Positions 8,088 through 57,329 of a stretch of DNA of 64,000 bases are shown piece after piece. Position 1 is the stretch's first letter. Each line of letters opens with the position of its first letter. The translations under genes and the position numbers were made by a program. The notes beneath the pieces were generated by a model, which was given only the letters and a program-made list of their open reading frames with translations, searched no databases and was not told where the DNA came from. Source of the DNA: Kordiimonas sp. SCSIO 12603 (GTDB taxonomy: Bacteria; Pseudomonadota; Alphaproteobacteria; Sphingomonadales; Kordiimonadaceae); NCBI RefSeq assembly GCF_024398035.1, contig NZ_CP073748.1, positions 1,401,520 to 1,465,519 on the forward strand. The letters run 5' to 3'.

Positions 8088-10127
8088 ATGCGTTGGAAAA
8101 TAAGACAATTTATCTTTGATGAGAAAGAACAGGCTCTGCATGAAAAAAATGCAGACGGCACTGAAAAAACTGTGCAGTTGGAGCCTCTCCTTGCCGAAGT
8201 GCTCACCTATTTTTGCCTGAACCCGGATAAAACCATCAGCCGGGACGAGCTTGTTGATGCAGTTTGGGAAGCTCGTGCTATCACGGATAATGCCGTAAAC
8301 CGGGTTATTGCAAAACTCAGGAAACAGCTGGGGGATGACCCTAAATCACCCCAATTTATTGCCACCTATCCTAAAAAGGGATACCGCTTTATTGCACCAG
8401 TTTCTGAACTAGCGGCAGAATCGGTTGTGGAAACTACTGCGGCAGATGGGGAAATGCAGGCCAAGCCACACAGCAGTAAACCCATGATGGTGTTTGCGCT
8501 GTTTATTATTGCAGCTTTTGCCGTGATGTATTTTCAGCAACCCACAAAGCCGGAACCAACTGTGAAAGGCACCGAATTTCTAACCCGCGGTGGCGGTCAG
8601 GAATTTCAGCCTTCTGTTTCACCTGATGGGAACCAGCTGCTTTACACCACCTTTGAAGATAATTTCCTTCAGCTTTATTTAAAGAACCTTACAACGCAGG
8701 AAACCGTTAAATTAAGTGAAGCGGGCGCGCACCATGGCCCTGCGGATTGGTCAGACAGTGGTAAATATATCGCGTACCTTTACACAGACCAGGAAAGCTG
8801 TGAACTGCGTCGCTTAACCCTTGATGGTATGAAAATAACGGTGCAGGAAACCATTCATTACTGCCCGAAGAACAGCTACGGCAAAGTGATATTCACCCAT
8901 GATGATAATAAGCTTTTGTATGCAGAAGCTAGCGAGGTTGGGCCGCCATATTCCATTTATGAGCTTACGCTGCCCGCGGGTACCAGCCGCCGCGTGAGCC
9001 AGCCAGAACTTATTCTGGGCGGCAATACACAGTTTGATCTGCACCCGACAGAAGATAAGCTTCTTATTTCCTCGCCTGATGCAGAGCAGTGGCTTGCATT
9101 TTTCACACTTGATCTGAAGCGGGATAAACTCACTCAGATGTTCCGCCTTAATGAATATATGTGCTGCGCAATCTGGAACCTTCGGGGCGACCGTGTGATC
9201 GTAATTGGTGAACATCCTGCGTATGACCTTATCAGTTTTGATCTGGAAGGTGGAGACAGGCAGATTATCCACAGTGCCAGCCACCGGATTAGCACCCCAA
9301 TTCGGGATGATCATACAGGTGGTTACGTATATGTGGGCGGTATCTATAACCGTGATATTATCTCCTTGGAGCGAGCAGATGACTCGCAGGAGCTGGTGGC
9401 AGCCTCTTCAGTAGATGATCGGTTGGTAACGCTTGCACCAAACGGCAAGATGATCGCTTACATGTCAGATAAATCAGGGCAAGATGAAGTGTGGCTTCAG
9501 TCTCTTGAAGATCATCAGGAAAGAAAGCTCACATCAGGCAGTAGCCATAGCCATTATTATGATTTGAAATGGTCAACTGATAGTAAGCGTCTGGTTGGTG
9601 TTACTATCAACGAACTTCATGTGGTTGATGCTGAAACTGGTGAGCGCCAGAAACTTGATATCCCGCAAACAGAAATCCGTGGTGTTTCCTGGTTTGATGC
9701 AAACACACTTTCTTACAGTGTTGCCGTAAAAGGTGGCTGGCAGGTGCATTATTATGATTTGCGTACCAATACAGTAAGCATCGAAAACAGATCTTGGGCC
9801 TATATTCGTTACGCCTCTGATATGAAAAATACCTTGTGGTTTTCAGAAACAGGGGAGCTTTTTTCCGGTGAGGGTAGAGAGCCAACTGGCTTAACTCTTT
9901 CAAACCCGATCGTTGGCCGTAAATTTGCTGTGGAAAAACAGGGTGATCAGCTTTTTTACTGGCAGTTTGAAAATGGTAAATGGGCTTTCTATGAACATGC
10001 TGTTGGCGGGGAGAAAGAGTTACTGCTTCAGGCAGACGGTATGCCCGCTTTCGCAGTTGCTGATGATAAGATTTATCTCTCCACGCTGAAAAGTCATTCA
10101 GCGGATATTTACCGTACCGTAAAATAA
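8088..10127 (+). CDS. CadC-like membrane regulator: winged helix, TM segment, TolB-like propeller
   Basis: 679 residues. Residues about 1-100 are a Trans_reg_C winged helix (SRDELVDAVWEARAITDNAV ... YPKKGYRFIAPVSE). One transmembrane segment follows near 128-143 (MMVFALFIIAAFAVMYF). The remainder, about 170-679, has PD40/WD40-like repeats such as FQPSVSPDGNQLLYTT, GPADWSDSGKYIAYLY and VTLAPNGKMIAYMSDKSG, which predict a periplasmic six- or seven-bladed propeller. It is a one-component, membrane-bound transcription factor sensing something outside the cytoplasm. The divergent secreted peptidase is the obvious target candidate. No phosphoryl-acceptor domain is present. Confidence 0.85.
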   Translation: MRWKIRQFIFDEKEQALHEKNADGTEKTVQLEPLLAEVLTYFCLNPDKTISRDELVDAVWEARAITDNAVNRVIAKLRKQLGDDPKSPQFIATYPKKGYRFIAPVSELAAESVVETTAADGEMQAKPHSSKPMMVFALFIIAAFAVMYFQQPTKPEPTVKGTEFLTRGGGQEFQPSVSPDGNQLLYTTFEDNFLQLYLKNLTTQETVKLSEAGAHHGPADWSDSGKYIAYLYTDQESCELRRLTLDGMKITVQETIHYCPKNSYGKVIFTHDDNKLLYAEASEVGPPYSIYELTLPAGTSRRVSQPELILGGNTQFDLHPTEDKLLISSPDAEQWLAFFTLDLKRDKLTQMFRLNEYMCCAIWNLRGDRVIVIGEHPAYDLISFDLEGGDRQIIHSASHRISTPIRDDHTGGYVYVGGIYNRDIISLERADDSQELVAASSVDDRLVTLAPNGKMIAYMSDKSGQDEVWLQSLEDHQERKLTSGSSHSHYYDLKWSTDSKRLVGVTINELHVVDAETGERQKLDIPQTEIRGVSWFDANTLSYSVAVKGGWQVHYYDLRTNTVSIENRSWAYIRYASDMKNTLWFSETGELFSGEGREPTGLTLSNPIVGRKFAVEKQGDQLFYWQFENGKWAFYEHAVGGEKELLLQADGMPAFAVADDKIYLSTLKSHSADIYRTVK

Positions 10128-35871: not shown

Positions 35872-36804
35872 CTATAGAATGGCCTTGAAAGCGGCCTTCA
35901 GTGTTGGGTGATTGAACCGGAAATCATTTTCCTGAGCAACCTGAGGCACAACCCGCTGACCTGTAAGGAAAAGGTCTGACAGATCCTGTAGAAACAGTTT
36001 CACCATAAACGCAGGCGCCCACATAAATTGAGGGCGGTTTAATTTCTTGCTCAGCTGTTTTTGGAAATCTTTCTGGCGTACGGGTTCAGCAGCCGTTGCG
36101 TTCACAGGGCCAGATATATCTGTATCATAGACAGCGAAAAGGATCAGCCTGATGATATCTTCAAGGGTAATCCAGCTCATCCACTGTTCGCCACTACCGA
36201 GCGTGGCACCAAGCCCGAACTTTGAGGCCATGGTCATGGGCTCCATAAAGCCCCCTTTTTCAGACAGTACAATACCGGTTCTGAGTTTTATAAGGCGACC
36301 AACATAATCCCTTGCACCTTCTGCTTCAGCTTCCCAGCTAGAGCAGATGGTTGCCATAAAATCTTCACCGGCAGGGGAATGTTCATCTGCGGTGCCGCGC
36401 ACCATATCACCATAATAGCCAATAGCGCTGCCGCTTAGCAGCACTTTGGGTTTCTTGCTCTGACGCTTCAGGAAATCATTAATATGTTTTGAAATGCCAG
36501 CGCGACTATCAAAAAAACTTTGTTTGCGGGCCTTGGTCCAGAAACCGCCAGCAAGTGGGCTGCCAGCCAGGTGGGCGATATGGCTGAAGGCGGCATCATC
36601 AGGCAGGCTGTTAAGATCTGTAATGGCGGTAATGGTATCACCAAACAGCTTATGCGCCTTTTCTGCATCACGGGTGTAGATTGATACTTTTGCCCCGCGG
36701 CTGAGAAGTTCAAAGGCAAGCGCGCTGCCAATTAAGCCAGTGCCGCCCGCTATAAGCCAATGATCACCTTCATGAAGTCCCGAAGTTGCTGGGTTTTCTG
36801 TCAT
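35872..36804 (-). CDS. TIGR01777-family NAD-dependent epimerase/dehydratase
   Basis: 310 residues. NAD-binding WLIAGGTGLIGSALAFELLS, LAGSPLAGGFWTKARKQ (typical of the family), LLSGSAIGYYG and GDHSPAGEDF-like DEHSPAGEDFMATICSSWEA, then MSWITLEDIIRLILFAV and the C-terminal DUF1731-like region (FMWAPAFMVKLFLQDLSDLF). The group includes SulA/YfcH homologues; the substrate is unknown. Single gene on the minus strand. Confidence 0.9.
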   Translation of the reverse strand: MTENPATSGLHEGDHWLIAGGTGLIGSALAFELLSRGAKVSIYTRDAEKAHKLFGDTITAITDLNSLPDDAAFSHIAHLAGSPLAGGFWTKARKQSFFDSRAGISKHINDFLKRQSKKPKVLLSGSAIGYYGDMVRGTADEHSPAGEDFMATICSSWEAEAEGARDYVGRLIKLRTGIVLSEKGGFMEPMTMASKFGLGATLGSGEQWMSWITLEDIIRLILFAVYDTDISGPVNATAAEPVRQKDFQKQLSKKLNRPQFMWAPAFMVKLFLQDLSDLFLTGQRVVPQVAQENDFRFNHPTLKAAFKAIL

Positions 36805-39633: not shown

Positions 39634-39687
39634 ATATTACGAATAACGTAATTAAATGTAAAGATAAAAAATTACGAATAACGAAAT
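39634..39687 (-). promoter_or_regulatory. Leftward promoter overlapped by phage repressor operators
   Basis: On the minus strand, TTTACA (39662-39657), 17 bases, TAATAT (39639-39634) make a good sigma-70 promoter pointing away from the repressor gene. ATTACGAATAACGTAAT (39636-39652) overlaps the spacer and -10. A second, imperfect copy ATTACGAATAACGAAAT lies at 39671-39687. The motif TTACG-N5-CGTAA is the same as at the repressor and late-gene promoters, so the unit is likely silent in lysogens. Confidence 0.6.
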
Positions 39688-39837: not shown

Positions 39838-40560
39838 TTATTTAGCGGCTTGCGGCATGTAGCGTCGGTGTACCCACTGAACAGCGGCAAAAATATCGTC
39901 GGTATACACAGTGGGTGACAGAGAATTTTCTGTGCCTTTAGAGGTGGTGGCTTCCAGAACTTGTGGGAGCGCGCTAAAGCGCCAGCTTTCAAAGGCCGGG
40001 TTCGGTTGCTCTGGTACTGGCGCTAACCAGGTTTCACCACCTTCAGCTGTCACCATTTGCCTGAGAGCGAGCTTATCCTTTCCGCGTTTCACAAGGAAAA
40101 TACCGCCCGGTGTCATGGGGTAAAAGTGTGTGCGCGGATCAGCTGTGATGATGATATCACCTTGCTTGATCTCTTTTGCCATGCTGCTGTCACCCATAAT
40201 GAAACAGTGAAGACCTTCATTAGAGGTTAAACCCGGCGGAACGGGAACTTCCTGCACACTTTCGTTAGCTGGGTTTGCAACAAGGCGGCCATCACCAAAC
40301 AGCAGCCCCGTAATAGGAATGGTGGCGATGGTTTCATCCGCAAGGATAGTACGCTTACCTTCTTCAAGGCTTTTCAAAAGTGATTTAGCAGAAAGATTTA
40401 AAAGTTCAGCAAGTGGGATAATTTCATCCGCCTGAACTTCGCGTTTACCCTTAATAATATCGGTTACCCTAGGAGGTGTGATGCCTAGAGCTTCTGCAAC
40501 ATCCTTGAGCTTGCAGCCTTGATCCTTAAGGGACGCCTTTATCCATTCCTGTGTTCGCAT
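39838..40560 (-). CDS. Phage repressor: helix-turn-helix plus S24 (LexA-like) domain
   Basis: About 240 residues from the ATG at 40560 (MRTQEWIKASL). An XRE-type helix-turn-helix covers about 12-60 (KLKDVAEALGITPPRVTDII). The C-terminal half (about 95-205) fits Peptidase_S24: FIMGDSSMAKEIKQGDIIIT and GGIFLVKRGKDKLALRQM. The nucleophile serine is kept in a slightly altered GDSSM, but the lysine of the usual VKRL appears to be Arg (ALRQM), and the Ala-Gly cleavage site seems replaced by GDG. The operators next to its start suggest autoregulation. It stands at the left end of the prophage. Confidence 0.85.
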   Translation of the reverse strand: MRTQEWIKASLKDQGCKLKDVAEALGITPPRVTDIIKGKREVQADEIIPLAELLNLSAKSLLKSLEEGKRTILADETIATIPITGLLFGDGRLVANPANESVQEVPVPPGLTSNEGLHCFIMGDSSMAKEIKQGDIIITADPRTHFYPMTPGGIFLVKRGKDKLALRQMVTAEGGETWLAPVPEQPNPAFESWRFSALPQVLEATTSKGTENSLSPTVYTDDIFAAVQWVHRRYMPQAAK

Positions 40561-40570
40561 GATTGCATTA

Positions 40571-40640
40571 TTTCGATAAACGTAAAACAAAGCAAGGAAA
40601 ATCGTAATTTTTTCTCTTGCATAAATTACGATAATCGTAA
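40571..40640. promoter_or_regulatory. Operators between repressor and DUF1376 gene
   Basis: TTTCGATAAACGTAA (40571-40585) and TTACGATAATCGTAA (40626-40640, a perfect palindrome around the centre base) share TTACG-N5-CGTAA; a half site ATCGTAA lies at 40601-40607. They sit in the divergent promoter region, one close to each gene, as in a lambda-type switch. Confidence 0.7.
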
Positions 40641-40710
40641 AATAATATAAAAAGAGAACTCAAACTCTCACTTAACGTTCAAATGATCATAAATGATGGA
40701 GGAGAGAGGC

Positions 40711-41694
40711 GTGGCAGAATTTCCCGCTTTGCCGCTTTATACAGATGCTTATCTGGCTGATACACGGCACCTGACCACTGAAGAGCATGGTGCTTATCTT
40801 CTGCTTCTGATGTGCATGTGGCGAACTCGTGGCTGCGCGCTGAAGGATGATGATAAACTGCTCGCCAGAATAGTTGGGGTTTCTTCGCGCCGGTGGATGA
40901 AGCTCCGTTTGGTCCTCGAGGATTTCTTTCTGGTAGCTGATGGCCTATGGCAACAAAAGAAACTGAACCTGGTTTATGAAGCTGTTGCTGCAAAAGTGGA
41001 GAAGAACCGCGCAAATGGTGCTAAAGGCGGTAAAACGCGGGCTGCCCGCGCTAAAGCTTTGAAAAATAAAGAAAGCTTGCAAGCACCTGCTTCTAGTTTG
41101 GTTGAAGCAAAAGCCAGCCAAACTGGTAGCAAAAAGCAAGCAGCCAAAGCCAAAACGGAATCCAAAGAATCTTCTGGCAGTAGAGAGATGGAAGCACTTT
41201 GTAGTGAGGTTGCTGCTGCTTCTGGCCTTCTTATTGGGCGGCTTGAAAGGGCGCAAATCAAAGCATGGCTGGATGGTGGTTGTGATCCCCAGCAGGATAT
41301 TCTTGCCACCATTTCTCGCTTGAAAGAACGGGAGGAAACCCGGCAGGGCAAAGCGCCCCTGCATCTCGCTTATTATAATGCGGCCGTTGAAGAGGCAAAA
41401 GGAAGTAAGGAGCCTGCGCATAGTATATCTGACACGGAAGCGAGGCTTATTAAAAATCAGCGACTGTTCGACCGGAAAAACCCTGAGCATTGGCGTACTT
41501 TTTTGGGGAATGCATCAAGCCGATACCGGGGTGATTATATGAGCCAGAATTGGGTTATCCCTTCTGGTCATCCCGTTTTTATGCCTGCCGATATTGGGCC
41601 GGATCCCCGTGCCAGATTTAACCCTTCCATTCCCGGTGAAGTTTACGGCGAATATGCCGCTTTTTGGGGATGGCAACAGCCGCGCAAAAGATAA
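40711..41694 (+). CDS. DUF1376 phage replication-type protein (YdaU-like)
   Basis: About 327 residues from a GTG at 40711 with GGAGGAGAG upstream. The N-terminus (FPALPLYTDAYLADTRHLTT, EEHGAYLLLLMCMWRTRGCA) is the DUF1376 signature found in phage early genes, often thought to act in replication initiation. The middle is a Lys/Ala-rich linker (about 100-165). The C-terminus ends with a conserved block (RYRGDYMSQNWVIPSGHPVF). It is the first rightward gene and is likely controlled by the divergent repressor through the two operators. Confidence 0.85.
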   Translation: MAEFPALPLYTDAYLADTRHLTTEEHGAYLLLLMCMWRTRGCALKDDDKLLARIVGVSSRRWMKLRLVLEDFFLVADGLWQQKKLNLVYEAVAAKVEKNRANGAKGGKTRAARAKALKNKESLQAPASSLVEAKASQTGSKKQAAKAKTESKESSGSREMEALCSEVAAASGLLIGRLERAQIKAWLDGGCDPQQDILATISRLKEREETRQGKAPLHLAYYNAAVEEAKGSKEPAHSISDTEARLIKNQRLFDRKNPEHWRTFLGNASSRYRGDYMSQNWVIPSGHPVFMPADIGPDPRARFNPSIPGEVYGEYAAFWGWQQPRKR

Positions 41695-41729
41695 TTTCAA
41701 GACATACTCATATGAAAGAGAGGCTTTAT

Positions 41730-42284
41730 ATGAAGCACAGCAGAAAGATATATAAAACGGCAACATCCACCCAGGAACGTAGTTTGAGGGAAACTTGCCT
41801 TGCCGTGAAAGCTGAGGAGCAAGTGGGGGATGCCCGCTATTCTAAAGAAAGCATAGCCATAAAGCTGGAAGCGAGATTGATAACCGCAGCATGGACTTTA
41901 CGGCGCATGCCTGACAGAGAGCAGAGCTTTTTGAAAATGCGAGGCGCACTTTGGCCGGAAATGATGGCAGAACCGGGACAGTATCCCCGAGAGCGCATCA
42001 GCAGTTTTGAAGCACGACGCCGGGTGCGTATTTCAGCTAAAGAAATTGATGAAATGCAGCCCACGCTTGATTTGCTGTTATTGTTGCCGGATCTCATCGA
42101 TCGGCAGATCCTTTTCTGGGCAGCCTGGCATCAGGATGGTGAAAAGCAGGACCGGCTTCCTTGGGCAAAGGTGAGACGTGCCTTGTTGGCTGCGAACGGT
42201 AAAAACTATTCACGTTGGACACTTAAGCGTAGATATGAAGCAGGATTATTGTGGCTTTCGGCACTTGTGCTTTTGCAAAATTAA
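41730..42284 (+). CDS. DUF6362-like phage protein
   Basis: About 184 residues from the ATG at 41730 (AGAGAGG upstream). ARLITAAWTLRRMPDREQSF, KMRGALWPEMMAEPGQYPRE and LLLLPDLIDRQILFWAAWHQ followed by KNYSRWTLKRRYEAGLLWL resemble DUF6362, a helix-turn-helix-like protein common between early genes and terminase in alphaproteobacterial prophages. Its job is unknown; the helix-turn-helix end suggests DNA binding, perhaps terminase recruitment or late control. Confidence 0.65.
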   Translation: MKHSRKIYKTATSTQERSLRETCLAVKAEEQVGDARYSKESIAIKLEARLITAAWTLRRMPDREQSFLKMRGALWPEMMAEPGQYPRERISSFEARRRVRISAKEIDEMQPTLDLLLLLPDLIDRQILFWAAWHQDGEKQDRLPWAKVRRALLAANGKNYSRWTLKRRYEAGLLWLSALVLLQN

Positions 42285-42510
42285 AGTGTGAGTCGTTCAG
42301 CTGTGGTGCATGTATTTGGGCAAAAAACCATCAATAGTTTTTCTTAAGTTTAATGATAATAAAACTAAAAATGCCGAATTTCTGCGCTTTTTTCGTTCTA
42401 TAGGCGAAATATCTCTATGGATGGTTATGCATTTAATTAGGGTTAATGGAAAATTTACGCTATACTCTGTGGATAACCGTTCAGAGTTCCTTCTTTCAAT
42501 GGAGGTGCTT

Positions 42511-43098
42511 ATGTATATCAGTAAAAGAGAGTTTCTCGAGCTGTTGAAATGTTGGCAGGATATGCCAAAAACCCTTTCACACACGCCCGCTAAAACCACT
42601 TTTACACCATCATCTATCTCAAAACTATTACCTCATGTTTTCCTGATGAAACAAAACCGTGATGGGGAATTCCAGCTTAGGCTTATTGGAACTGAATTGG
42701 AGACCATGCTTGGGGGTAAAGAAGCAAGTCGATCCCGTTTTCAACAGCTTGCCCGTGATGAAAATGACTTTTTCGGTGAATTTGTAAATCGCAGTATGAA
42801 AGAGCCTATCGGGGGCTTGCTTAGCCAAAAAATAAAACTCGGGGAAGAAGGCTATATCAGATTTGAAGCTTTCACTGTTCCGTTGGCAGATAAAGCGGGA
42901 GTGCCTCGCTATGTGCTTGGGGCCGTGTCGGCTGAGCGGCATTTCCTTAACCCTCCGCTGCAGGGTGGTATCCATGAGGAACCCCGTATCAATTTCTTCG
43001 ATTTAAATGCAGCAGATCTGGAACTTGGGATCAGAAATCACTTTGTGCAGCAAGAAGAAATGGCGGCAGAAACAACAGCCCAGTATATTGTTCATTAA
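42511..43098 (+). CDS. PAS_5 protein within the prophage
   Basis: 195 residues from the ATG at 42511, directly after GGAGGTGCTT. The family pattern is clear: FLELLKCWQDMPKTLSHTPA, FTPSSISKLLPHVFLMKQNR, FQLRLIGTELETMLGGKEAS and FEAFTVPLADKAGVPRYVLG. Upstream at about 42463 is TATACT, a possible -10, so the gene may have its own promoter. The family is a host family in this genome (three copies at 22-25 kb), so the phage copies may mimic or tap a host sensory network. Confidence 0.8.
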   Translation: MYISKREFLELLKCWQDMPKTLSHTPAKTTFTPSSISKLLPHVFLMKQNRDGEFQLRLIGTELETMLGGKEASRSRFQQLARDENDFFGEFVNRSMKEPIGGLLSQKIKLGEEGYIRFEAFTVPLADKAGVPRYVLGAVSAERHFLNPPLQGGIHEEPRINFFDLNAADLELGIRNHFVQQEEMAAETTAQYIVH

Positions 43099-43529: not shown

Positions 43530-44069
43530 GTGCTCTTAGATCAAATGCCAATGGCGGGCCTCTCCGAAGCTACCAGAAAGTTGGTAACTTATTGGCAAAG
43601 CTTACCTCAAACCGGTGAATTCAGGGTGCCTGAACGCCGTGTTTTCCAAAGCGGGCCTGTGGTTGCGCCCTATTTGTCAGAGCTATTTATCATTGAGTGG
43701 AAATCCGTCGATGAAATTATCATTCGGCTTTCCGGTACCAAACTTGACCGTATTCTTGGCCGCGAAGTAACAGGCGAAAACCTGTTCGATTTATTGCCTC
43801 CGGAATTATGCGAAGAAGAAAAAAGCTATTACCAGCATCTGAAAGATAGTGGGTGCGCCGGTATGCTTACTCGAGCAGCACAAAATCTAAATAATTTTCC
43901 AATTGTCTATAGAACAGTACATCTTCCGCTTGCGGATAAGGAAGGTAATCTCAAATACTGGATTGGCACAGGTAGTATGCTCTCTGAAGAACAGGTGCGT
44001 TCAGAATATGCAGGCATTGATTTCACGACTGTTTTTGAATTAGGTCGTGAATTTTTTCAGTGTCACTAA
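43530..44069 (+). CDS. PAS_5 protein within the prophage
   Basis: 179 residues; GTG start after GAGGGTGATGTA. KLVTYWQSLPQTGEFRVPER, FQSGPVVAPYLSELFIIEWK, IIIRLSGTKLDRILGREVTG and YRTVHLPLADKEGNLKYWIG match the PAS_5 pattern. No other domain. The sequence is only distantly like the neighbouring copies, so this is not a recent duplication. Confidence 0.8.
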   Translation: MLLDQMPMAGLSEATRKLVTYWQSLPQTGEFRVPERRVFQSGPVVAPYLSELFIIEWKSVDEIIIRLSGTKLDRILGREVTGENLFDLLPPELCEEEKSYYQHLKDSGCAGMLTRAAQNLNNFPIVYRTVHLPLADKEGNLKYWIGTGSMLSEEQVRSEYAGIDFTTVFELGREFFQCH

Positions 44070-44202
44070 GTCTAAGCCAAGTCTTTCAAATAAATCTGCA
44101 AATAAATAACTACTGACCTTTTCTTTTTTCAGGAAAAGAATACACTTATCCACTAATGAAGCCATGTTTATTATATAAAATTGATGGATAGTGGGATTTC
44201 GA

Positions 44203-44754
44203 ATGTATTCGAGAAACAGCCCAACTTATGAGGCTGCTGCAAAAATTGCATCATATGGCACTCTTCTTTTAGGGGAAGATGTACTTCCCCTGTCTCCTGC
44301 AGCTAGAAAGCTTTATGAGCTTTATCAGTCTGCCGCAGTAGATGGCCTTGCTGACCGTAAGAAAATCAGCCTGCCAACTCTTGGCCGCATGGCTGCTCAG
44401 GTTACTATTTTTGAACCTGTTCCTCTTAATCCTGATGATCTGGAAAATGAAGCGGAAGATGATGCCCGCATCAGGCTTCTTGGTTCTGCAACGGCGCAGT
44501 TTTATGGGGAAATCACGGGTACACTGATATCCGAATATAAAAACGCCACTATTGCGGGGCGTATTTTAAAGGCTATCCGGCTTTGCCAGATGGAACGTAA
44601 TATTCTGGCAGCTGCTACCAAAATTGATGGGGCTGAAACCCCGCTTGAACTGCGCGCGATATATTTCCCTATGACCACAGACGGCAAAAACGCCAACCAG
44701 ATTTTCTGTCATCTAGCTATCAGCGAAATGGTAGAAGATAGCATTCAGCTTTAA
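44203..44754 (+). CDS. Divergent PAS_5-like protein within the prophage
   Basis: About 183 residues. AARKLYELYQSAAVDGLADR, ISLPTLGRMAAQVTIFEPVP, DARIRLLGSATAQFYGEITG and LELRAIYFPMTTDGKNANQI keep the PAS_5 order but are more diverged than the others. It lies directly before the first copy of the 77-bp regulatory repeat, which begins at its stop codon. Its position before the late operon would suit a late-gene control protein, but that is inference. Confidence 0.6.
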   Translation: MYSRNSPTYEAAAKIASYGTLLLGEDVLPLSPAARKLYELYQSAAVDGLADRKKISLPTLGRMAAQVTIFEPVPLNPDDLENEAEDDARIRLLGSATAQFYGEITGTLISEYKNATIAGRILKAIRLCQMERNILAAATKIDGAETPLELRAIYFPMTTDGKNANQIFCHLAISEMVEDSIQL

Positions 44755-44827
44755 TTTACGAAAAACGTAAAAAATAACTTGCACCTTAATGCATAATATT
44801 GCACTATAGGGATAGTTAAGATCTGCA
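44751..44827 (+). repeat. 77-bp regulatory repeat, copy 1
   Basis: It matches 46146-46222 at 74 of 77 positions. It contains TTTACGAAAAACGTAAA (44755-44771), which fits the repressor operator, then TTGCAC at 44779-44784 and again at 44799-44804, exactly 20 bases apart. TTGCAC-N17-CACTAT could be a weak promoter, or the two TTGCAC boxes could be an activator site. It stands before a secreted protein gene. Confidence 0.85.
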
Positions 44828-44930
44828 AATATGTGTGACGTCGGCGATTAAATTCGTGTGATAGCGTTCACAAGTATTTCTCTTCATGGTAGCAGTTATA
44901 TTATTTTATATATTATTGCGTGTGGGGGCT

Positions 44931-45662
44931 ATGAATACTCTTTCAATTTTGCTTATGGCTACGTCAGGTTTCTTGAATTCTGAAACAGCAAAGCCAGTCG
45001 AAAATGCACCTTTTGTTTTTTACTTGTCTGAAAAGAATTTAAGCGCAGTCACAAAATCTAAACTTGGCGTACATGGTGCGCCCTCTGTTTATTTGGATGA
45101 AGATACTGAGTTTTCTGTTTGTTCGGTGTCGTCTGGTACAGATATTATACCTTTGGAACGATTTCTTGAATTTTCTTATGAAAGTAAAAAGCAGGTACCA
45201 GTAGCGGGTGTTTGCCAACAGTTTATGCCCGGACGCCGGATGTTGAGTTTATCACCCTCAAGTGAGTTTGATGTTCGTAAAGCAGCAGGGATTAAGCTCT
45301 CTTTTACGCCAAAGAACTATGAGATAAACATTTTACATCTCTCTGTTTTCAGTAAGGATAAAGAACCTATCCGTTTTGAATTGAAAGATAACGTTTCTGT
45401 TTCGGTTGGGGAAGCTGGGCACACAATTGAGTATGTAGGCTCCAAACCACGTTGGAAGCCAGATGTAGGGTGCAGAGCGGTGATAGAGCATGAACTGGGT
45501 AGGTCTTCTAAGCCGGTGTCATGTTCAAATTTAAGGCCTGGCCATTATGAGCTTTACTATAATGGTCCAAGAGAAAACGTGATTGCCGAAGTGAATGTGA
45601 TGGTTTCCTTCGAGAAATTTGATCCTAATTTGCAGACACGTCCTGAGAGTGAACTGGATTAA
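44931..45662 (+). CDS. Secreted protein of unknown function in prophage insert
   Basis: About 243 residues from the ATG at 44931 (TGGGGG upstream), with signal-peptide-like MNTLSILLMATSGFLNSE; a longer start at 44886 would add a hydrophobic segment. The mature part is beta-rich with four cysteines (VCSV, VCQQF, VGCRAV, VSCSNL) likely in disulphides. No family recognised. It is preceded by copy 1 of the regulatory repeat, and lies in a segment absent from typical phages of this type, so it is probably a lysogenic-conversion or late-exported gene. Confidence 0.6.
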   Translation: MNTLSILLMATSGFLNSETAKPVENAPFVFYLSEKNLSAVTKSKLGVHGAPSVYLDEDTEFSVCSVSSGTDIIPLERFLEFSYESKKQVPVAGVCQQFMPGRRMLSLSPSSEFDVRKAAGIKLSFTPKNYEINILHLSVFSKDKEPIRFELKDNVSVSVGEAGHTIEYVGSKPRWKPDVGCRAVIEHELGRSSKPVSCSNLRPGHYELYYNGPRENVIAEVNVMVSFEKFDPNLQTRPESELD

Positions 45663-45664
45663 GC

Positions 45665-46033
45665 TTAACGGTGCTGGTCAATCAGTACAGGGTATCCGTC
45701 AGGATCAATCACCATAAAGCTGCCGGGTCCACTATCGCCGCCGCCTTCGTTTTGAATTTCTAGGCCGACTGCTTTCAGTTTGGCTTTAATATCTCGAACA
45801 TCTTCAAAGGATGGCAGTTCGCCCGCTGATTGGTCCCACCCGGGGTTGAAGGTAAGCATGGGGCCTTCGAACATGCCTTCAAACAGGCCAACGAGTGTTT
45901 CACCATTTTTCATGATCAGATATTTATGGTCTTCGTTTCCGGCGAATTGATTGAAACCAAGGGCTTCATAAAAGGCCTTTGATTTTGCCAGGTCTTTCAC
46001 GCCGAGACTGATAGAGAAAGCACCAAGTTCCAT
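45665..46033 (-). CDS. VOC-family (glyoxalase/bleomycin-resistance fold) protein
   Basis: 122 residues from the ATG at 46033, with AGGAG upstream. ISLGVKDLAKSKAFYEALGF at the start, and SFMVIDPDGYPVLIDQH at the end, with HKYLIMKNGETLVGLFEGMF between, form the paired beta-alpha-beta modules of VOC proteins. These bind metals or toxic ligands; the specific role is unknown. It is on the opposite strand to the late genes and lies between the two copies of the 77-bp repeat, so it came in with the insert. Confidence 0.85.
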   Translation of the reverse strand: MELGAFSISLGVKDLAKSKAFYEALGFNQFAGNEDHKYLIMKNGETLVGLFEGMFEGPMLTFNPGWDQSAGELPSFEDVRDIKAKLKAVGLEIQNEGGGDSGPGSFMVIDPDGYPVLIDQHR

Positions 46034-46145
46034 GGGTATTGCTCCTGCGAGTATGAATGCGAACTCTGAAACTACCACATATACTGTTTGGGCTTTTGAG
46101 CCGGATGTCAATCGCAGAACGATAGGCATATCCGGCATTTAGAAA

Positions 46146-46222
46146 TTAATTTACGAAAAACGTAAAAAATAACTTGCACCCTAATGCATAATATTGCACC
46201 ATAGGGATAGTTAAGTTCTGCA
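46146..46222 (+). repeat. 77-bp regulatory repeat, copy 2, before the terminase genes
   Basis: It differs from copy 1 at three of 77 positions. Operator TTTACGAAAAACGTAAA at 46150-46166; TTGCAC boxes at 46174-46179 and 46194-46199. It is followed by a terminator at 46291-46324 and then the small terminase gene, so it is most likely the late-operon control region. Confidence 0.85.
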
Positions 46223-46290
46223 GTTGTGTGCGTCTGGGTGGGCAGCCCGGTTTCACGCTTACCATAGAAGATCATATAAAGATTATTATC

Positions 46291-46324
46291 AAAGCACGCG
46301 GTATTTGCTCGCGTGCTTTTCTCG
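46291..46324 (+). terminator. Intrinsic terminator between late promoter region and terS
   Basis: AAAGCACGCG (46291-46300) pairs with CGCGTGCTTT (46310-46319), followed by TCTCGTTTTT. No plus-strand gene lies between repeat copy 2 and this hairpin, so it would cut short a leader RNA of about 100 bases. This resembles the lambda late leader stopped at tR'. Confidence 0.75.
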
Positions 46325-46353
46325 TTTTTACCTTTGTATATAGGAAGGGCTTC

Positions 46354-46800
46354 ATGAAACTGGGATGCGAAAAGCTGGAACAGCAAAAAGCTATCAAAGC
46401 CAAGTTTCTGGATTTTCTTTCTGAAGGCTATTCTGTGGTGAAAGCGGCTGAAGCTGCAGGTGTTTCGGGACGCACTGTTTATAAATGGCGACGAGTGGAT
46501 ATCGCCTTTGCTGTTGAATGGGAGCAGGCGCTCGATATCGCCACTGATCTTATTGAGGAAGAAGCAATGCGCCGCGCCGTAAAAGGGGTTGCAAAACCCG
46601 TTTACCGTGGCGGTGAAGTGGTGGGCCACGTGCAGGATTATTCCGATAGCATGCTTATGTTTCTTCTCAAGGCGCGCAGGCCAGAAAAATACAATGATAA
46701 AGCAGGGAAAGCTGATCAGCAGACCCTTGATACAGTTGGGGTGAAAGATGCGCTTCTCCGTAAGTTCCGTGCGGTCGCTCAGCCGCCCAAAAAGAACTGA
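46354..46800 (+). CDS. terS: Terminase small subunit
   Basis: About 148 residues from the ATG at 46354 (AGGAAGGGC upstream). The N-terminal helix-turn-helix FLSEGYSVVKAAEAAGVSGR followed by TVYKWRR, and the conserved RRPEKYNDK late in the protein, are typical of small terminase subunits, which recognise phage DNA for packaging. It overlaps the large-subunit gene by 53 bases. An acidic centre (ALDIATDLIEEEAMRRAVKG) forms the oligomer core in relatives. Confidence 0.85.
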   Translation: MKLGCEKLEQQKAIKAKFLDFLSEGYSVVKAAEAAGVSGRTVYKWRRVDIAFAVEWEQALDIATDLIEEEAMRRAVKGVAKPVYRGGEVVGHVQDYSDSMLMFLLKARRPEKYNDKAGKADQQTLDTVGVKDALLRKFRAVAQPPKKN

Positions 46801-48052
46801 GTTTCTTAAAAGTCTTACCGACGAGGAAGCAGCGCTCCTTTTTTATGATTGGTCCTTCTGGGCAAGGCGTAGCCAATTACCGCCAAAAGGCGCTTGGGCG
46901 CACTGGCTTGTACTCGCGGGTCGCGGCTTCGGGAAAACACGCGCAGGTGCCGAATGGGTTAGGGGGCTGGTGGAAATAGCGGAAGCGGAAAAAGATCCGG
47001 TCCGTATAGCACTTGTTGCCCCCACACTCCATGATGGTCGCGCGGTGATGATTGAAGGCGATAGCGGCCTTATGAGGATTTGCCCGCCTTGGGCAACGCC
47101 AAAGTTTGAAAGCAGTAAACGTACACTTACGTGGCCCGGTGGCTCGGTTGCTACCCTGTTTAGTGCTGAAGAGCCTGAACGCTTGCGGGGGCCGCAGCAT
47201 CATGCCGCCTGGTGTGATGAGCTGTGTGCTTGGCGGCATCAGGAAAGCACGTGGGATAACTTGCTGTTTGGGCTTCGACTTGGCAGCAACCCGCGCTCCA
47301 TGATTACGACAACACCAAAGCCCACAGCGCTTCTGAAGGCACTTCTTAAAGCTGATGATGTTGCTGTCACACGGGGCAGTACATTTGATAATATGGATAA
47401 TCTGGCCCGCAGTTTTAAAAGCCAGATTTTAAAAAAATACGAAGGCACGCGTCTGGGGCGTCAGGAACTAATGGCAGAGGTGCTGGAAGATGTGGCTGGC
47501 GCTTTGTGGCAACGCGCGCATCTCGATACGCTCAGGGTGTATAAAGCCCCTGAGCTGGACCGCCTTGTGGTGGCCATTGACCCACCGGCCACAGCCGGAG
47601 AAAACGCCGATGAATGCGGTATTGTTGCTGCTGGTACTGCTGGCGAGCAAGCCTATGTGCTGGCGGATTGCAGTGTTCAGGGCTTGTCTCCAAATGGCTG
47701 GGCGCGGCGGGCAGTGGCGCTTTATCATACATTGAAGGCAGATCGTATCGTGATTGAGGTAAATCAGGGCGGTGCGATGGCGGAAAGTGTGATCCGGCAG
47801 GTGGACGCTACAGTACCTATTACCGCTGTCCACGCCACTCGCGGCAAACGTACACGGGCTGAACCTGTTGCCAGTCTTTATGAACTATCTCGCGTGCACC
47901 ATGTGGGTGCGTTCCCGCAGCTCGAAGACCAGATGTGCAGTTTTACCGGTGCGGGGCCCGGCAGCAGCCCAGACAGGCTTGATGCTCTTGTTTATGCCAT
48001 CTCTGATTTAATGCTCGGGCACAGCGCCTCACCGCAAATAAGGAAACTTTGA
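46748..48052 (+). CDS. terL: Terminase large subunit, DNA-packaging ATPase/nuclease
   Basis: 434 residues. Walker A LAGRGFGKTRAG (about 54-65), Walker B near HHAAWCDELCAW, and nuclease acidic residues in VVAIDPPATAGENADECG and SSPDRLDALVYAISDLM. This is the GTA/HK97-like large terminase (RcGTA ORFg2 type). It cuts and pumps DNA into proheads through the portal. Start ATG at 46748 overlaps terS. Its stop overlaps the portal start (TGATG), as in most such operons. Confidence 0.93.
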   Translation: MRFSVSSVRSLSRPKRTEFLKSLTDEEAALLFYDWSFWARRSQLPPKGAWAHWLVLAGRGFGKTRAGAEWVRGLVEIAEAEKDPVRIALVAPTLHDGRAVMIEGDSGLMRICPPWATPKFESSKRTLTWPGGSVATLFSAEEPERLRGPQHHAAWCDELCAWRHQESTWDNLLFGLRLGSNPRSMITTTPKPTALLKALLKADDVAVTRGSTFDNMDNLARSFKSQILKKYEGTRLGRQELMAEVLEDVAGALWQRAHLDTLRVYKAPELDRLVVAIDPPATAGENADECGIVAAGTAGEQAYVLADCSVQGLSPNGWARRAVALYHTLKADRIVIEVNQGGAMAESVIRQVDATVPITAVHATRGKRTRAEPVASLYELSRVHHVGAFPQLEDQMCSFTGAGPGSSPDRLDALVYAISDLMLGHSASPQIRKL

Positions 48053-51806: not shown

Positions 51807-51945
51807 GTGTTTCCCCAACAATGAAATATATTCTTATAAATAGTTTTAACTATTTGATTGTGAAAATACTCGCAAAATAATGTTCATCTTTTGTTCATGG
51901 TGTATTATATACCTTATGGGTGCAATTATCACATTGGGGAAAATA

Positions 51946-52260
51946 ATGAAAAAGTTCTTAAATGCGTTTCTTGTTGGTGGCTTGCTGATTTCAAGCACTG
52001 CCGCGTTTGCGGGGAAAGTTACACTTACTGTTGAATTTGATCGGGCAAAAATCAAGTTTCGTCAGATTGATACAGAGGTAACACCGGTTTGTACGTTTAA
52101 GCGTATGGTGGCTGAGCGCCTGAATATAAAGATGAAGGAATTTAATCTTAGAAGATCTGGTTCCTTATTGAGGGCAGATAATATGTTGAGTGATCACCGC
52201 ATTCATTCTGGTTCAATCATTAAGGTTGAAAAAGTAAGTTATTCAAGCCAGTGCCGCTAA
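51946..52260 (+). CDS. Secreted ubiquitin-like beta-grasp protein
   Basis: 104 residues from the ATG at 51946 (GGGGAAAATA before it). Signal peptide MKKFLNAFLVGGLLISSTAA ending at AFA-GK. The mature part runs KVTLTVEFDRAKIKFRQI (beta hairpin), VCTFKRMVAERLNIKMKEFN (helix), LRRSGSLLRADNMLSDHRIH and SGSIIKVEKV, which follows the order of ubiquitin, including an LSDxxI-x-x-GS-x-I-x-V ending. There is no C-terminal Gly-Gly; it ends SSQCR with a free Cys pair (VTPVC and SQC) that could form a disulphide. The assignment is from pattern only. Confidence 0.6.
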   Translation: MKKFLNAFLVGGLLISSTAAFAGKVTLTVEFDRAKIKFRQIDTEVTPVCTFKRMVAERLNIKMKEFNLRRSGSLLRADNMLSDHRIHSGSIIKVEKVSYSSQCR

Positions 52261-53666: not shown

Positions 53667-55169
53667 ATGCTGGCGAACCGAGTTCGGGAATATTCAAAAA
53701 CAACAGGTACAGGCGATATCATTCTTTCTGGTGCTATGGCAGGCCATGTGCGTTTTATTGATGGGTTCAGTGTTGGTGACAGTGTGATTTATGTGCTCGA
53801 GGATGGTGCTAATTATGAAATTGGTACCGGCACATTAACAACAACAGAGACGCTTGAGCGCACAGAAATACAGGAAAGTCTGATTGATGGTGAGCTGAAG
53901 AGGGGGGCTGAAGCAGAGCCGGTTCCTCTTTCAGGGCAAGCTAGAGTTTATTGTGCAGCGACAACGGAGTTTCTTACAAAACGACCAGAGATTACGACAG
54001 ATATCATTCGCGAGGTAACGCCAGATGCGGGTGTGACAATTGATGGTGTATCGGTGCAGGATGGGAACCTCAAGACGCCCGGGGAAGTTAGTGTTGGTGG
54101 CAGAACCACGTTTGGTAATCGTTTCCAAAACGGTGAATATGCGCTGACATTGTTGCCTGATACTCAGGGGAAAAGCATCTTTCATGTGAAGAATGACAGG
54201 GATGCTATTCGTTGGGGACATGGGGGGAACGCGTATGGAGGGTTTCAGGAGTTAGCCACCCTTTCAAATCAAGGAACTTTTGTAGCTCAAAGGTTAGCTC
54301 ACCCTACGATGGCTCTTGGAATGGCTTCAGGTGAGAGAAGCTGGTTTGCACCTATTTTAAGCGGTGTTACAGATTTTGGAAAAGAGTTTGGTTATAGCCC
54401 GGCTTTACGAAATGGTGCTGGTGCCTGGTATTTTGAGCATGATTTACAGACAGCTAGTATTTTTGCTAACGGTGATGGCCATGCCTTTAGTCGGCATGGC
54501 AGGCATGTTTCCTCGCCCAACCAGTTTGATGGTACAGTTTTACGGCTTGAGCAATCTAATCCTTCATACGGAACAAACCTAGAGCTTGTCTCCACACAAG
54601 GCCAGCAGGCAAGTATTGTGTTGGGGGACGTGAACAATCTGGATGGTTTTATTATACAGTATGGTGCAAGTGACAGCATTTTTATGATGCGCCACCAGAA
54701 CGATCCTGTTCTTTCCTATAGCTCTAATAGTTGGGACCTTCACCAAAAGGGTATAGTCAATCTCCGTTCTCTTGTTGCAAATGTGGGTGAAGGCGGTGCT
54801 CAGATACGCTGGACACGGAGTAGTAACGACAGAAACCTTACTCAGGCTTTTGTACCAGCGGGAGATGTATCAGCGACTAATGTTCAGTATAATTTCGGCA
54901 TTGGTGCAAATGCGCACTCCATGAAGCTTAGCAAATATGATGGCGAACAAACTGTTTCCCTACAAACATGGAATACAGATGGCTCTGTTTCTCTTTATCA
55001 TAAAGGTGGTGAGGCGCTAAAAACCACTTTTGACGGTGTGATTATACGTGATCCAGATACACCGGATGGCGTGAATACTAAAGCGCCGGTACTCAGGTTT
55101 GAAAATCAAGATGGAACGGGTACGGCTGGGTTTATTCAATCATACCATTCAGGCCCTTTTGTTTTATGA
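53667..55169 (+). CDS. Tail-fibre protein, N-terminal part before an in-frame TGA
   Basis: 500 residues ending in TGA at 55167-55169. The N-terminus LANRVREYSKTTGTGDIILS, then GHVRFIDGFSVGDSVIYVLE and YEIGTGTLTTTETLERTEIQ, is the usual start of phage fibres in alphaproteobacterial HK97 phages. The rest is beta-rich and glycine/asparagine-rich. The frame continues past the stop without shift into the next 720 codons, so the intact gene would encode about 1220 residues. Most likely TGG (Trp) became TGA, or the stop is read through. An N-terminal fragment alone would lack the receptor-binding end. Confidence 0.8.
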   Translation: MLANRVREYSKTTGTGDIILSGAMAGHVRFIDGFSVGDSVIYVLEDGANYEIGTGTLTTTETLERTEIQESLIDGELKRGAEAEPVPLSGQARVYCAATTEFLTKRPEITTDIIREVTPDAGVTIDGVSVQDGNLKTPGEVSVGGRTTFGNRFQNGEYALTLLPDTQGKSIFHVKNDRDAIRWGHGGNAYGGFQELATLSNQGTFVAQRLAHPTMALGMASGERSWFAPILSGVTDFGKEFGYSPALRNGAGAWYFEHDLQTASIFANGDGHAFSRHGRHVSSPNQFDGTVLRLEQSNPSYGTNLELVSTQGQQASIVLGDVNNLDGFIIQYGASDSIFMMRHQNDPVLSYSSNSWDLHQKGIVNLRSLVANVGEGGAQIRWTRSSNDRNLTQAFVPAGDVSATNVQYNFGIGANAHSMKLSKYDGEQTVSLQTWNTDGSVSLYHKGGEALKTTFDGVIIRDPDTPDGVNTKAPVLRFENQDGTGTAGFIQSYHSGPFVL

Positions 55170-57329
55170 AACCAGAATTTGGATGCTCCTATGCTTTTTC
55201 AGGGTATCGATACAGAAGGAATAGTTCGGACTTTACTACAAGCTGATCCTGAGGATGGCATAGCCTTAAACTATAAAGATGAAACAAAATTAGTTACTAC
55301 AAATGCGGGCGTGCAGATTACACTTCCCTCTGGGACTATTGCAGGAACAGATATCGGGCAAGCTGGATTATTGATCGGGAATACAGATTTAGGGCTTGGT
55401 TTTGATACCAATGAAATTGTGTCTGCCGGGAGTGATTTATATTTAGGTGCGCTAGAAGGTGCTACTCATATCCGCAGTGGAAATGCAGATATCGTGTCTA
55501 TAGGCACAGAAGCAATCAGATTCAAACGAAGAATTGTTATAGAACATAATGAAATTGCTCGAGGGTCTTTAACCGACCGTTTGGTGCTTTCAGGCAACTC
55601 AAGCAGCAATGCTGGAGCAGCTATTCAGCTTTTTGGTGAAAGTCATACAACGCAAGCAAATGATATCCTTTTTCAAGCTGGAACAAATGTACGTTTATTG
55701 TGGGATGATAGTGCGGGGCATTGGAGTTTCGAGAATACCTGGATCAATGGTGTTGCGGATTTAACAAGAGGTATAGGCACAGATAATTTATATTTATCAG
55801 GGGGGACTAATACAGGATTGGGCGCCAATATTATTCTGTACGGTCAAGAGCATCCAACTAATGCGGATGATGTGTTGTTTCGCAGTGGTTCTAGCTCTGT
55901 CGCACAATATGATGCATCAGCTTCGGCTTGGGATTTCAAGCAAAAACCTTTAAGAGCAGCGGAATATATAACTAGAGGCGTAAATGATGAGGTCTTTAGT
56001 TTAAGTGGGGGGAGCGAAATAGATTTTGGCGCAAATATAAATCTACATGGGCCATCACATACTACCCAATCAAATGACATAATTTTTAGAACAGGTACAA
56101 CTCCTGTATTACATTGGCAAAATACTTCTGAGGTATGGGACTTTAAAGACACAAGAATCGATAACTTATCTGAGATGCGACTTTCTACAGGTGTTATTGC
56201 TAATAACTCCGCCGACAGTATTTTGATTGTCTCAGGAAGCAATAGTGGTGGTACTGGCGGCAATATTGCTTTGTATGGTTCAGAACACTCTACAAAGGCA
56301 AATGATATCGAGTTACGCCAAGGTACAGCGGTGCGCTTGCATTATGATTATAGTCAGAGTGTGTTTGACTTTCGTGGTAATAAAATAAGAAATGCAGGCA
56401 GAATTGAACGCTCTACAAATACGGATATATTGCAGCTATCTGGCGGAACAGATGTATTTAATGGCGCAAATATATTGCTGTATGGCGGAGCGCATAATTC
56501 TCAGGCTAATGATTTCAGATTTCGTGCCGGCACGAATGATAAGCTGAGTTATAATGATGCTGTGGCGACATGGAATTTTCAGGCCAATAGTCTAGCTGGT
56601 GTGGCCAATATTAGGTTAGACGGTGAAACTAGTCGTATACATTTTTCGGAAATTTCCACAGGTGATGGGTTTTCTATCGTTCATGATGGAACTGGTTTTG
56701 CGGATACCAATTTGTTGGAAATTCGCGGAGGGGCTGGCGCGCCGACACTGCACAATACTCATATTTCAATTGCGAGAGATAGTGGTGCTACCCAATTTAA
56801 AGGGCGTATTCTTGCGAATGGTGGGGTACTTCTTTCAGCGGCAGGTGATGTATCCCCAACTTCTTTGGAACATGCGTTTCAGATAGGTGATACCTCTTCA
56901 TATAATCTTGTGATGGATAGTAATGAGATAATGGCGCGCCATAATGGCGTGGTATCTCGGTTGAATATCCAAATTGAAGGCGGAGAAACCCACTTTGGAG
57001 GTAGAGTAACCTTTGCGGGTAAATCATCATTTGGTTCTCCCGGGGAACTGAGCATTTTCGAAGGCGCTGTTACAGCCACCAAATCATTCCACGTTATTGA
57101 TACAGAAGCAGATAGCGCATTAGATGATTTGGATACCATTCACGGCGGTGCAGACGGTGATATATTGATCCTGCAAATCTCATCGAACAGCAGAGCAGTT
57201 ACCGTTAGGGATAACATGGGCAACATTAGGCTCTCTAGTGATTTCACCATGGATGTTACTTCCGACAAACTGGTCCTCATTCATGTTGGCTCTAACTGGC
57301 ACGAACTTAGCCGATCTAATAACGCCTGA
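55170..57329 (+). CDS. Tail-fibre protein, C-terminal part with five tandem repeats
   Basis: About 719 residues in the same frame as the upstream part; a TTG at 55179 could restart translation, but no ribosome site is seen. Between about 55555 and 56610 five repeats of 58-70 residues occur, each with a core like GANIILYGQEHPTNADDVLF, ANDIELRQGTAVRLHYDY and a WDF/FDF ending, followed by N-x-x-I-x-R. The C-terminus (LVLIHVGSNWHELSRSNN) is a typical fibre tip. It binds the host surface if joined to the N-terminal part. Its place next to the capsid gene instead of at the tail end of the cluster is unusual. Confidence 0.8.
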   Translation, partial: NQNLDAPMLFQGIDTEGIVRTLLQADPEDGIALNYKDETKLVTTNAGVQITLPSGTIAGTDIGQAGLLIGNTDLGLGFDTNEIVSAGSDLYLGALEGATHIRSGNADIVSIGTEAIRFKRRIVIEHNEIARGSLTDRLVLSGNSSSNAGAAIQLFGESHTTQANDILFQAGTNVRLLWDDSAGHWSFENTWINGVADLTRGIGTDNLYLSGGTNTGLGANIILYGQEHPTNADDVLFRSGSSSVAQYDASASAWDFKQKPLRAAEYITRGVNDEVFSLSGGSEIDFGANINLHGPSHTTQSNDIIFRTGTTPVLHWQNTSEVWDFKDTRIDNLSEMRLSTGVIANNSADSILIVSGSNSGGTGGNIALYGSEHSTKANDIELRQGTAVRLHYDYSQSVFDFRGNKIRNAGRIERSTNTDILQLSGGTDVFNGANILLYGGAHNSQANDFRFRAGTNDKLSYNDAVATWNFQANSLAGVANIRLDGETSRIHFSEISTGDGFSIVHDGTGFADTNLLEIRGGAGAPTLHNTHISIARDSGATQFKGRILANGGVLLSAAGDVSPTSLEHAFQIGDTSSYNLVMDSNEIMARHNGVVSRLNIQIEGGETHFGGRVTFAGKSSFGSPGELSIFEGAVTATKSFHVIDTEADSALDDLDTIHGGADGDILILQISSNSRAVTVRDNMGNIRLSSDFTMDVTSDKLVLIHVGSNWHELSRSNNA

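Follow-up and report, generated by a model that had tools for sequence, protein, structure and literature searches.

In a 64,000-nucleotide stretch of the Kordiimonas sp. SCSIO 12603 genome (contig NZ_CP073748.1, positions 1,401,520 to 1,465,519; referred to here as the window), a phage-derived element carries a short module of DNA twice, once before a gene for an orphan protein and again before terS, the gene for the terminase small subunit, which raises the question of what this module does and how it came to flank the two-gene cassette between its copies. We consider it reasonably probable that the module represents the late promoter of a gene transfer agent (GTA)-like element, duplicated around the cassette in the common ancestor of this genome (G000) and one sister species (G003), and that it is governed by the repressor and antitermination circuit proposed below.

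Alignment of the two copies (44751-44827 and 46146-46222) revealed differences at three of 77 positions, as the initial annotation had stated, and ungapped extension of both yielded 79 identical bases out of 85 (93%); a whole-genome search returned these two copies only. Each copy harbors the palindrome TTTACGAAAAACGTAAA (at 44755 and 46150) and a pair of TTGCAC boxes that begin 20 bp from each other (44779/44799 in copy 1 and 46174/46194 in copy 2), an arrangement that had likewise been described and is present in the sequence. With up to three mismatches allowed, the 26-bp double-box pattern is matched exactly twice in the window, against 0.00 matches expected from 100 shuffles, and the palindrome six times, against 0.18 expected; two of these six matches lie inside the repeat, and three of the remaining four adjoin the gene of a CI-like repressor.

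Among 19 genomes of the genus, the module was detected in 14 by whole-genome similarity and in 18 by a DNA pattern search, being present as one copy in 16 of these 18 and as two only in the sister species G000 and G003. It is located upstream of terS in 16 of the 18 module-bearing genomes, the others being G009, where the contig ends, and G010, which is without a terS match; in the one genome without a module (G006), the sequence breaks off 173 bases short of the terS match, and 18 of the 19 genomes possess such a match. No module was seen in L052, and the pattern search, which allowed two mismatches, returned five additional matches (one each in G004, G009, and G013 and two in G008) that were judged by eye not to be modules. 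The junction foreseen in the initial annotation, in which a PAS_5 gene is followed by a single module and terS, was seen in relatives, and its identification of a late-control region looks right in view of this distribution. In G010 (L027 9912-14044), a lone module with a consensus-like promoter immediately precedes those host genes by which the element is flanked elsewhere, the structural genes being missing.

The order of parts in 21 aligned copies is the palindrome, an AT-rich spacer, TTGCACC, a variable stretch, and, in most copies, TGCACCATA, the second box being conserved in most copies as TGCACC. In G002, G009, G010, and viral contig L133, a TATAGT-like -10 element takes the place of the second box at 17 bp from TTGCAC, which suggests the register of the promoter. 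TTGCAC is best read as a predicted -35 box located 17 bp before a weak -10 box, giving a putative sigma70-type promoter (TTGCAC-N17-CAC[C/T]AT) with the palindrome 7 bp upstream. Two other readings of the boxes were rejected: as a pair of repressor sites, since all that is conserved of the second box is TGCACC, with the TATAGT-like -10 in its place in G002, G009, and G010, and as a -35 box for the second TTGCAC, because by eye no -10 lies 16 to 18 bp further on. Across 12 element-bearing regions (876 kb), the palindrome with at most one mismatch has 21 sites to the left of the repressor gene, 19 between that gene and the primosome gene, 15 in the 2 kb upstream of terS, and 18 in other places, at least six of which are repressor-side sites in G002 and G007, where the repressor falls outside its cluster. 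As permuted palindromes reached totals of 1 to 63, compared with 73 for the actual one, placement is more telling than the total; the recurrence of the palindrome beside the CI-like repressor gene suggests that it is probably the operator of the element's own repressor. The palindromes to the left of this gene (39636-39687 in the window; 15456-15535 in L022) often occur as two or three copies about 33 bp apart, resembling an additional operator region.

An intrinsic terminator is predicted between the module and terS in 13 of 19 leaders, compared with 50 of 668 control windows taken from these elements and 5 of 380 shuffled sequences, and under a stricter rule in 7 of 19 leaders compared with 5 of 795 controls (the leader set excludes L052, G006, G009, and G010). 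The predicted order of module, terminator, and terS is the layout of late promoters working by antitermination, with a terminator standing between promoter and structural genes as in Q/GafZ-type systems. Weighing against the proposed reading, the leaders of G005, G007, G012, and L053 show no clear one, those of G001 and G017 are longer-looped hairpins that pass by eye only, and that of G011 is weak. No terminator was found between copy 1 and the orphan gene, where leader structure is not beyond chance (z -0.74), and since copy 2 keeps its terminator, the orphan gene may become active with no need for the step that terS would require, so that its timing may be uncoupled from strict coexpression with packaging.

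The orphan protein comprises 243 to 258 residues depending on its start, position 44931 being the likelier by eye because GGGGG precedes it. It had been described as a secreted Cys-rich protein; its N terminus is hydrophobic, and four Cys residues over this length make "Cys-rich" too strong. Pfam, PHROGs, NCBIfam, and PADLOC yielded no match to it at the cutoffs applied, nothing was found for it in viral contigs, plasmids, or the PDB, and its structure model (predicted local distance difference test [pLDDT] score, 35) is unusable. The gene is restricted to G000 and G003, representing 2 of 19 genomes of the genus and 2 of 296 of the order. Between these two genomes it shows 14 synonymous and 14 nonsynonymous differences and a nonsynonymous-to-synonymous rate ratio (dN/dS) of 0.28, compared with 0.135 for the VOC gene and 0.096 for terL, the terminase large subunit gene (the PAS3 row, a mislocated match, was left out of this comparison), which indicates that the orphan gene is under constraint. 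No terminator was listed after it in a scan of the window. The second gene of the cassette, a VOC gene, lies on the opposite strand as previously noted; it has relatives in 11 of the 19 genomes, which outside G000 and G003 are located away from the element.

Within the module and on either side of it, G000 and G003 agree in the bases by which the two copies differ, and the duplication thus predates their split. The A-run that follows the palindrome has one length in both G000 copies and another in both G003 copies, a hint of copying between the two module copies or of slippage. Copy 2 keeps the leader and the terminator and sits where the single module of relatives sits; the cassette is an addition in one lineage (G000/G003), and a single copy is best taken as the ancestral state. 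The initial annotation had envisaged that a cassette carrying its own control region was inserted at the late promoter. A cassette at a duplicated late promoter appears largely right; it may have arrived with its own copy, or the target may have been duplicated on its entry. The precise loss of the cassette by recombination, which had also been envisaged, was not seen. In two other elements (L053 2646-4471 and L026 about 8600-9885), the distance from the module to the terL start is 1.6 to 1.8 kb compared with about 0.6 kb, and the stretch after the late promoter may thus be a recurrent cargo site.

The late-promoter reading has weak points of its own, in that CACCAT and CACTAT each match the -10 consensus at only three of six positions, a promoter scan of the window listed no promoter at either copy, and the palindrome is centered near -50, upstream of the -35 box and not in the classic blocking position. 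Activators often sit with their center near -50, and the distance between palindrome and -35 box varies by only 2 bp across the aligned copies, as would suit a palindrome that binds an activator or another host regulator in place of the element's repressor; we regard this as improbable, the palindrome being clustered in most elements at the repressor gene's own promoter region, the usual place of a CI-type operator. Copy 1 might also be a dead by-product, with the orphan gene using another promoter or not being expressed with the element. Such a role would agree with the two deviations of G000 copy 1 from the common form, TTGCACCT (shared by G005) and CACTAT, with its leader, which has no structure beyond chance, and with the empty promoter scan; it nevertheless seems unlikely, as the palindrome and -35 box of copy 1 are identical in G000 and G003 and the gene directly 3' of it is under constraint. 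Direct repeats flanking a cassette that is absent from relatives could, moreover, be scars of recombination or transposition, i.e., attachment sites or a target-site duplication, and not a regulatory module. This was rejected because 16 genomes that lack the cassette have single modules with the same operator and promoter layout; furthermore, neither of the two intervening genes is evidently that of a recombinase, and repeats of 77 to 85 bp with three to six differences are far beyond the usual length of target-site duplications, so that we give such an origin very little credence.

For the module as a late promoter, we propose the following course of events, in which repressor binding, promoter activity, antitermination, and the timing of the orphan gene are inferred from sequence. 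In the resting cell, the CI-like repressor would hold the late and early promoters silent, and upon its loss the early genes would be made, among them a small DUF6362-related protein. RNA polymerase would be loaded by this protein at the late promoter, the repeated TGCACC boxes being a possible site, and would then pass the leader terminator to transcribe terS, terL, and the genes for the head and tail. The two-gene cassette (orphan gene on the forward and VOC gene on the reverse strand) would have entered in the ancestor shared by G000 and G003, and the promoter module would have been duplicated around it, copy 2 retaining the terminator and terS and copy 1, being terminator free, permitting expression of the orphan gene as soon as the repressor leaves. 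The orphan protein would, under this scheme, probably be made whenever the element wakes.

The DUF6362-related protein is predicted to act as the antiterminator. Its cluster is represented in 11 of the 12 regions, with a tblastn match in G007; its conserved part is C-terminal, and nine of 11 orthologs match DUF6362. Two observations count against the assignment: in the window protein itself the DUF6362 match is below the Pfam cutoff (E 0.005), and its structure model, with a pLDDT of 70, gave no significant structural match. No significant PDB match was obtained by sequence or by fold, viral models named as sigma70 or extracytoplasmic function (ECF) sigma being among the nonsignificant structural matches. 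A profile of the protein matched seven of 289 genomes of the class, its own genome strongly and six weakly. The two PAS_5 genes, which lie between the candidate antiterminator gene and the late promoter region, are weakly like the cell cycle regulator MopJ (NCBIfam E 2e-5 and 9e-7, respectively, far below the curated cutoff), and at least one gene of the PAS_5 cluster is located upstream of terS in all 12 regions.

In late control of the lambda type, represented by Q, pR', and tR', a late promoter is followed by a leader terminator and the structural genes. The Kordiimonas element resembles this layout, a small early gene lying upstream where Q would be, and departs from it in the operator-like palindrome directly upstream of the late promoter and in a candidate that is without a significant match to solved structures. 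Phage morons and the cargo of lambdoid late promoters likewise comprise an extra gene inserted at a late promoter; the orphan gene resembles these in its position and in its probable expression on induction, and is unlike them in that the promoter module itself is duplicated, one copy serving the cargo and one packaging. The orphan gene is restricted to one lineage, and a promoter of its own is predicted from sequence only.

A further comparison is offered by the GTA of Caulobacter crescentus, which has a LexA/CI-like repressor, RogA (PMC9632790), and a protein, GafZ, by whose action polymerase gets past a terminator in the GTA cluster; the GafZ site is located between -35 and -10, and a sigma-like helix-turn-helix is predicted in the protein (PMC11150451). 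The control of the two systems (RogA, GafY, and GafZ in Caulobacter) is alike in its LexA/CI-like repressor, in a small regulator, which in Kordiimonas is a candidate, and in a terminator between the promoter and most structural genes, which is predicted in Kordiimonas and overcome by antitermination in Caulobacter. There are several differences: the sigma-like helix-turn-helix predicted in GafZ is only hinted at in the small Kordiimonas protein; the terminator follows the first gene in Caulobacter and precedes terS in Kordiimonas; the palindromic GafZ site lies inside the promoter, from -35 to -10, whereas the repeated Kordiimonas boxes overlap the -35 and -10; and gafYZ is unlinked in Caulobacter, whereas the Kordiimonas repressor, candidate antiterminator, and late genes are linked (PMC9632790, PMC11150451).

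The element encodes terminase, portal, protease, capsid, connector, tail tube, large tail protein, endolysin, and holin, and its tape-measure-like protein is short, at 297 residues. These head, tail, and lysis genes, together with the repressor and a replication-type gene, relatives among viral contigs, and a second, more distant terS in G016, would fit an ordinary temperate prophage group infecting Kordiimonas, in which case the element would be a self-propagating phage with its late promoter in duplicate and a moron for a cassette; retention of the DUF1376 replication-type gene is also unusual for a GTA. The genomic setting speaks against such an origin. The same host genes flank the element, with a phosphopantetheinyl transferase gene downstream in 10 of the 12 compared regions (the other two end before or about there) and a LysE-type gene within 17 kb to the left in seven, and relics occupy the same site in three species (G002, G010, and G013), G013 having kept early genes and terS with no terL match and G002 having kept terL and part of the portal gene. 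Distances between terL sequences track those of seven neighboring host genes (r 0.72-0.91; p < 0.05 in 7/7 tests, with five to nine genomes each and uncorrected for multiple testing), as do those of the candidate antiterminator (significant in 7/7), portal (6/6), primosome (6/7), and repressor (6/7); a mixed cluster holding terS was significant in none of three tests. PF00589 tyrosine integrase matches were present in all nine genomes searched and in none of them inside the element, serine recombinases, other recombinases, and excisionases not having been searched. Two results run counter to a shared, vertically inherited site: a first pooled distance test, preceding the gene-by-gene comparison, gave an r of 0.30 (p 0.10), and homologs of a left-side gene of G000 (35872-36804 in the window) lie elsewhere in other species. 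Synteny judged from this single gene had at first argued against a shared site, which the wider flanks reversed; gene L017:16616-18361 gave a mixed picture. A search for terS in viral contigs found nothing. Shared flanks, distances, and remnants point to vertical inheritance at a fixed site, as in a GTA, and we hold with moderate confidence that the element is domesticated and GTA-like, an ordinary prophage group appearing somewhat unlikely.

Its relation to RcGTA-like elements is one of partial likeness, seen in matches to terL, portal, protease, capsid, and tail tube genes, in the short tape-measure-like gene, and in the shared site. The RcGTA genes g2, g3, g4, g5, and g9 were all matched in nine of the 12 regions, G002 and G008 having only g2 and g3 (the G008 contig ends) and G013 none, and the values for G000 compared with an Erythrobacter cluster were 50% for terL, 39% for portal, 39% for protease, 50% for capsid, and 37% for tail tube. 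Unlike RcGTA-like elements, the Kordiimonas regions are unmatched for the tail-tip genes g12 to g14, which gave no tblastn match in any of the 12, nine of which hold head and tube genes. In a terL tree of 84 rows, built from loci with related portal or RcGTA tail-tip genes and an uninterrupted terL of at least 380 residues (six loci standing for the genus set were left out; terL alignment A1 used 8 of the 11 rows first tried), 11 Kordiimonas and five other rows formed one clade (SH-aLRT support, 99), apart from the sampled Sphingomonadales RcGTA-like clade (99). The 27 rows labelled RcGTA-like by tail-tip genes are scattered, needing 11 changes, with weak deep forks, and among them a Zavarzinia pair is placed near Kordiimonas (82). 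A survey of RcGTA-like clusters lists these by order (PMC6821227), and the Methylobacterium nodulans RcGTA-like prophages are described as having integrase genes near three of five clusters (PMC11409702), unlike the Kordiimonas element with no PF00589 integrase inside.

If the proposed reading is true, cargo can join a domesticated phage element without disturbing packaging, by copying the late promoter and leaving the terminator with the packaging genes. The results also point to a GTA-like element that seems not to have been described and that extends through a marine genus; given the conservation of its operator, promoter, and terminator, its control lends itself to direct testing. It is possible, albeit doubtful at present, that Kordiimonas has its own domesticated GTA lineage, separate from the Sphingomonadales RcGTA-like clade as sampled, in which CI-like repressor, DUF6362 antiterminator, and PAS_5 sensors form a linked circuit, and that in one lineage a host-serving gene was wired to a terminator-free duplicate of the late promoter, so that particle-producing cells would also secrete a dedicated protein before or during lysis. 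In the literature searched, outside which most subscription papers fall, no paper combined "Kordiimonas" with "gene transfer agent," and DUF6362 had no mention; in the material available there, Kordiimonas with prophage returned only a Shewanella phage paper, and Kordiimonadales with GTA returned papers that are unrelated as judged by title only.

The features of the locus are collected in Table 1.

Table 1. Positions in the window of the module copies, predicted control sites, and genes of the Kordiimonas element
Feature	Position	Strand	Basis
Two operator-like palindromes left of repressor gene	39636..39687	+	Palindrome scans
CI-like repressor, HTH_3; S24-peptidase match below cutoff	39838..40590	-	Pfam, PHROGs
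Two operator-like palindromes between repressor and primosome genes	40570..40641	+	Palindrome scans
DUF1376 primosome-like protein, first early gene	40693..41694	+	Pfam, PHROGs
Small DUF6362-related protein, candidate antiterminator (Q/GafZ role)	41664..42284	+	Pfam, orthologs, model
PAS_5 protein directly after candidate antiterminator	42310..43098	+	Pfam
Second PAS_5 protein	43530..44069	+	Pfam
Third protein of this stretch, no Pfam match; stop codon overlaps start of copy 1	44191..44754	+	
Module copy 1, before orphan protein gene	44751..44835	+	Repeat alignment, whole-genome search
Palindrome TTTACG-N5-CGTAAA, probable repressor operator, copy 1	44755..44771	+	Palindrome scans
Proposed promoter, copy 1: TTGCAC, 17 bp, CACTAT	44779..44807	+	Sequence; -10 register from relatives' TATAGT
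Orphan protein gene, hydrophobic N terminus (possible signal peptide, by eye), 4 Cys	44931..45662	+	Open reading frame (ORF) open from 44886
VOC/glyoxalase-family protein gene, ORF open from 46138	45665..46033	-	Pfam Glyoxalase E 7e-7
Module copy 2, at the place before terS common to relatives	46146..46230	+	Repeat alignment, relatives' layout
Palindrome, probable repressor operator, copy 2	46150..46166	+	Palindrome scans
Proposed late promoter, copy 2: TTGCAC, 17 bp, CACCAT	46174..46202	+	Sequence, aligned relatives
Predicted intrinsic terminator in terS leader	46291..46319	+	Terminator scan; 46286-46330 folds at -16.6 kcal/mol, z -4.8
terS, terminase small subunit, start by eye	46354..46800	+	phrog_4044 E 8e-36
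terL, terminase large subunit	46748..48052	+	Pfam, PHROGs

Some minor observations concern the wider gene content. The second terS of G016 is located elsewhere in that genome (L051 and L259; C6:276683-276988) and perhaps belongs to a related prophage. The terL of L061, a record named Croceifilum oryzae (Bacillota), is 59% identical to that of the window, and the terL of viral contig L138 is identical to that of L061. A small protein encoded at 51880-52260 has a subthreshold ubiquitin match (E 0.001; 19.3 bits compared with a cutoff of 25.4), its cluster being present in four of the 12 regions. After the capsid gene, G000 has two ORFs (53667-55169 and 55179-57329, of 500 and 716 amino acids) compared with one of 1,270 amino acids in G003, and a single ORF of more than 1,000 amino acids occupies the same place in five other regions.

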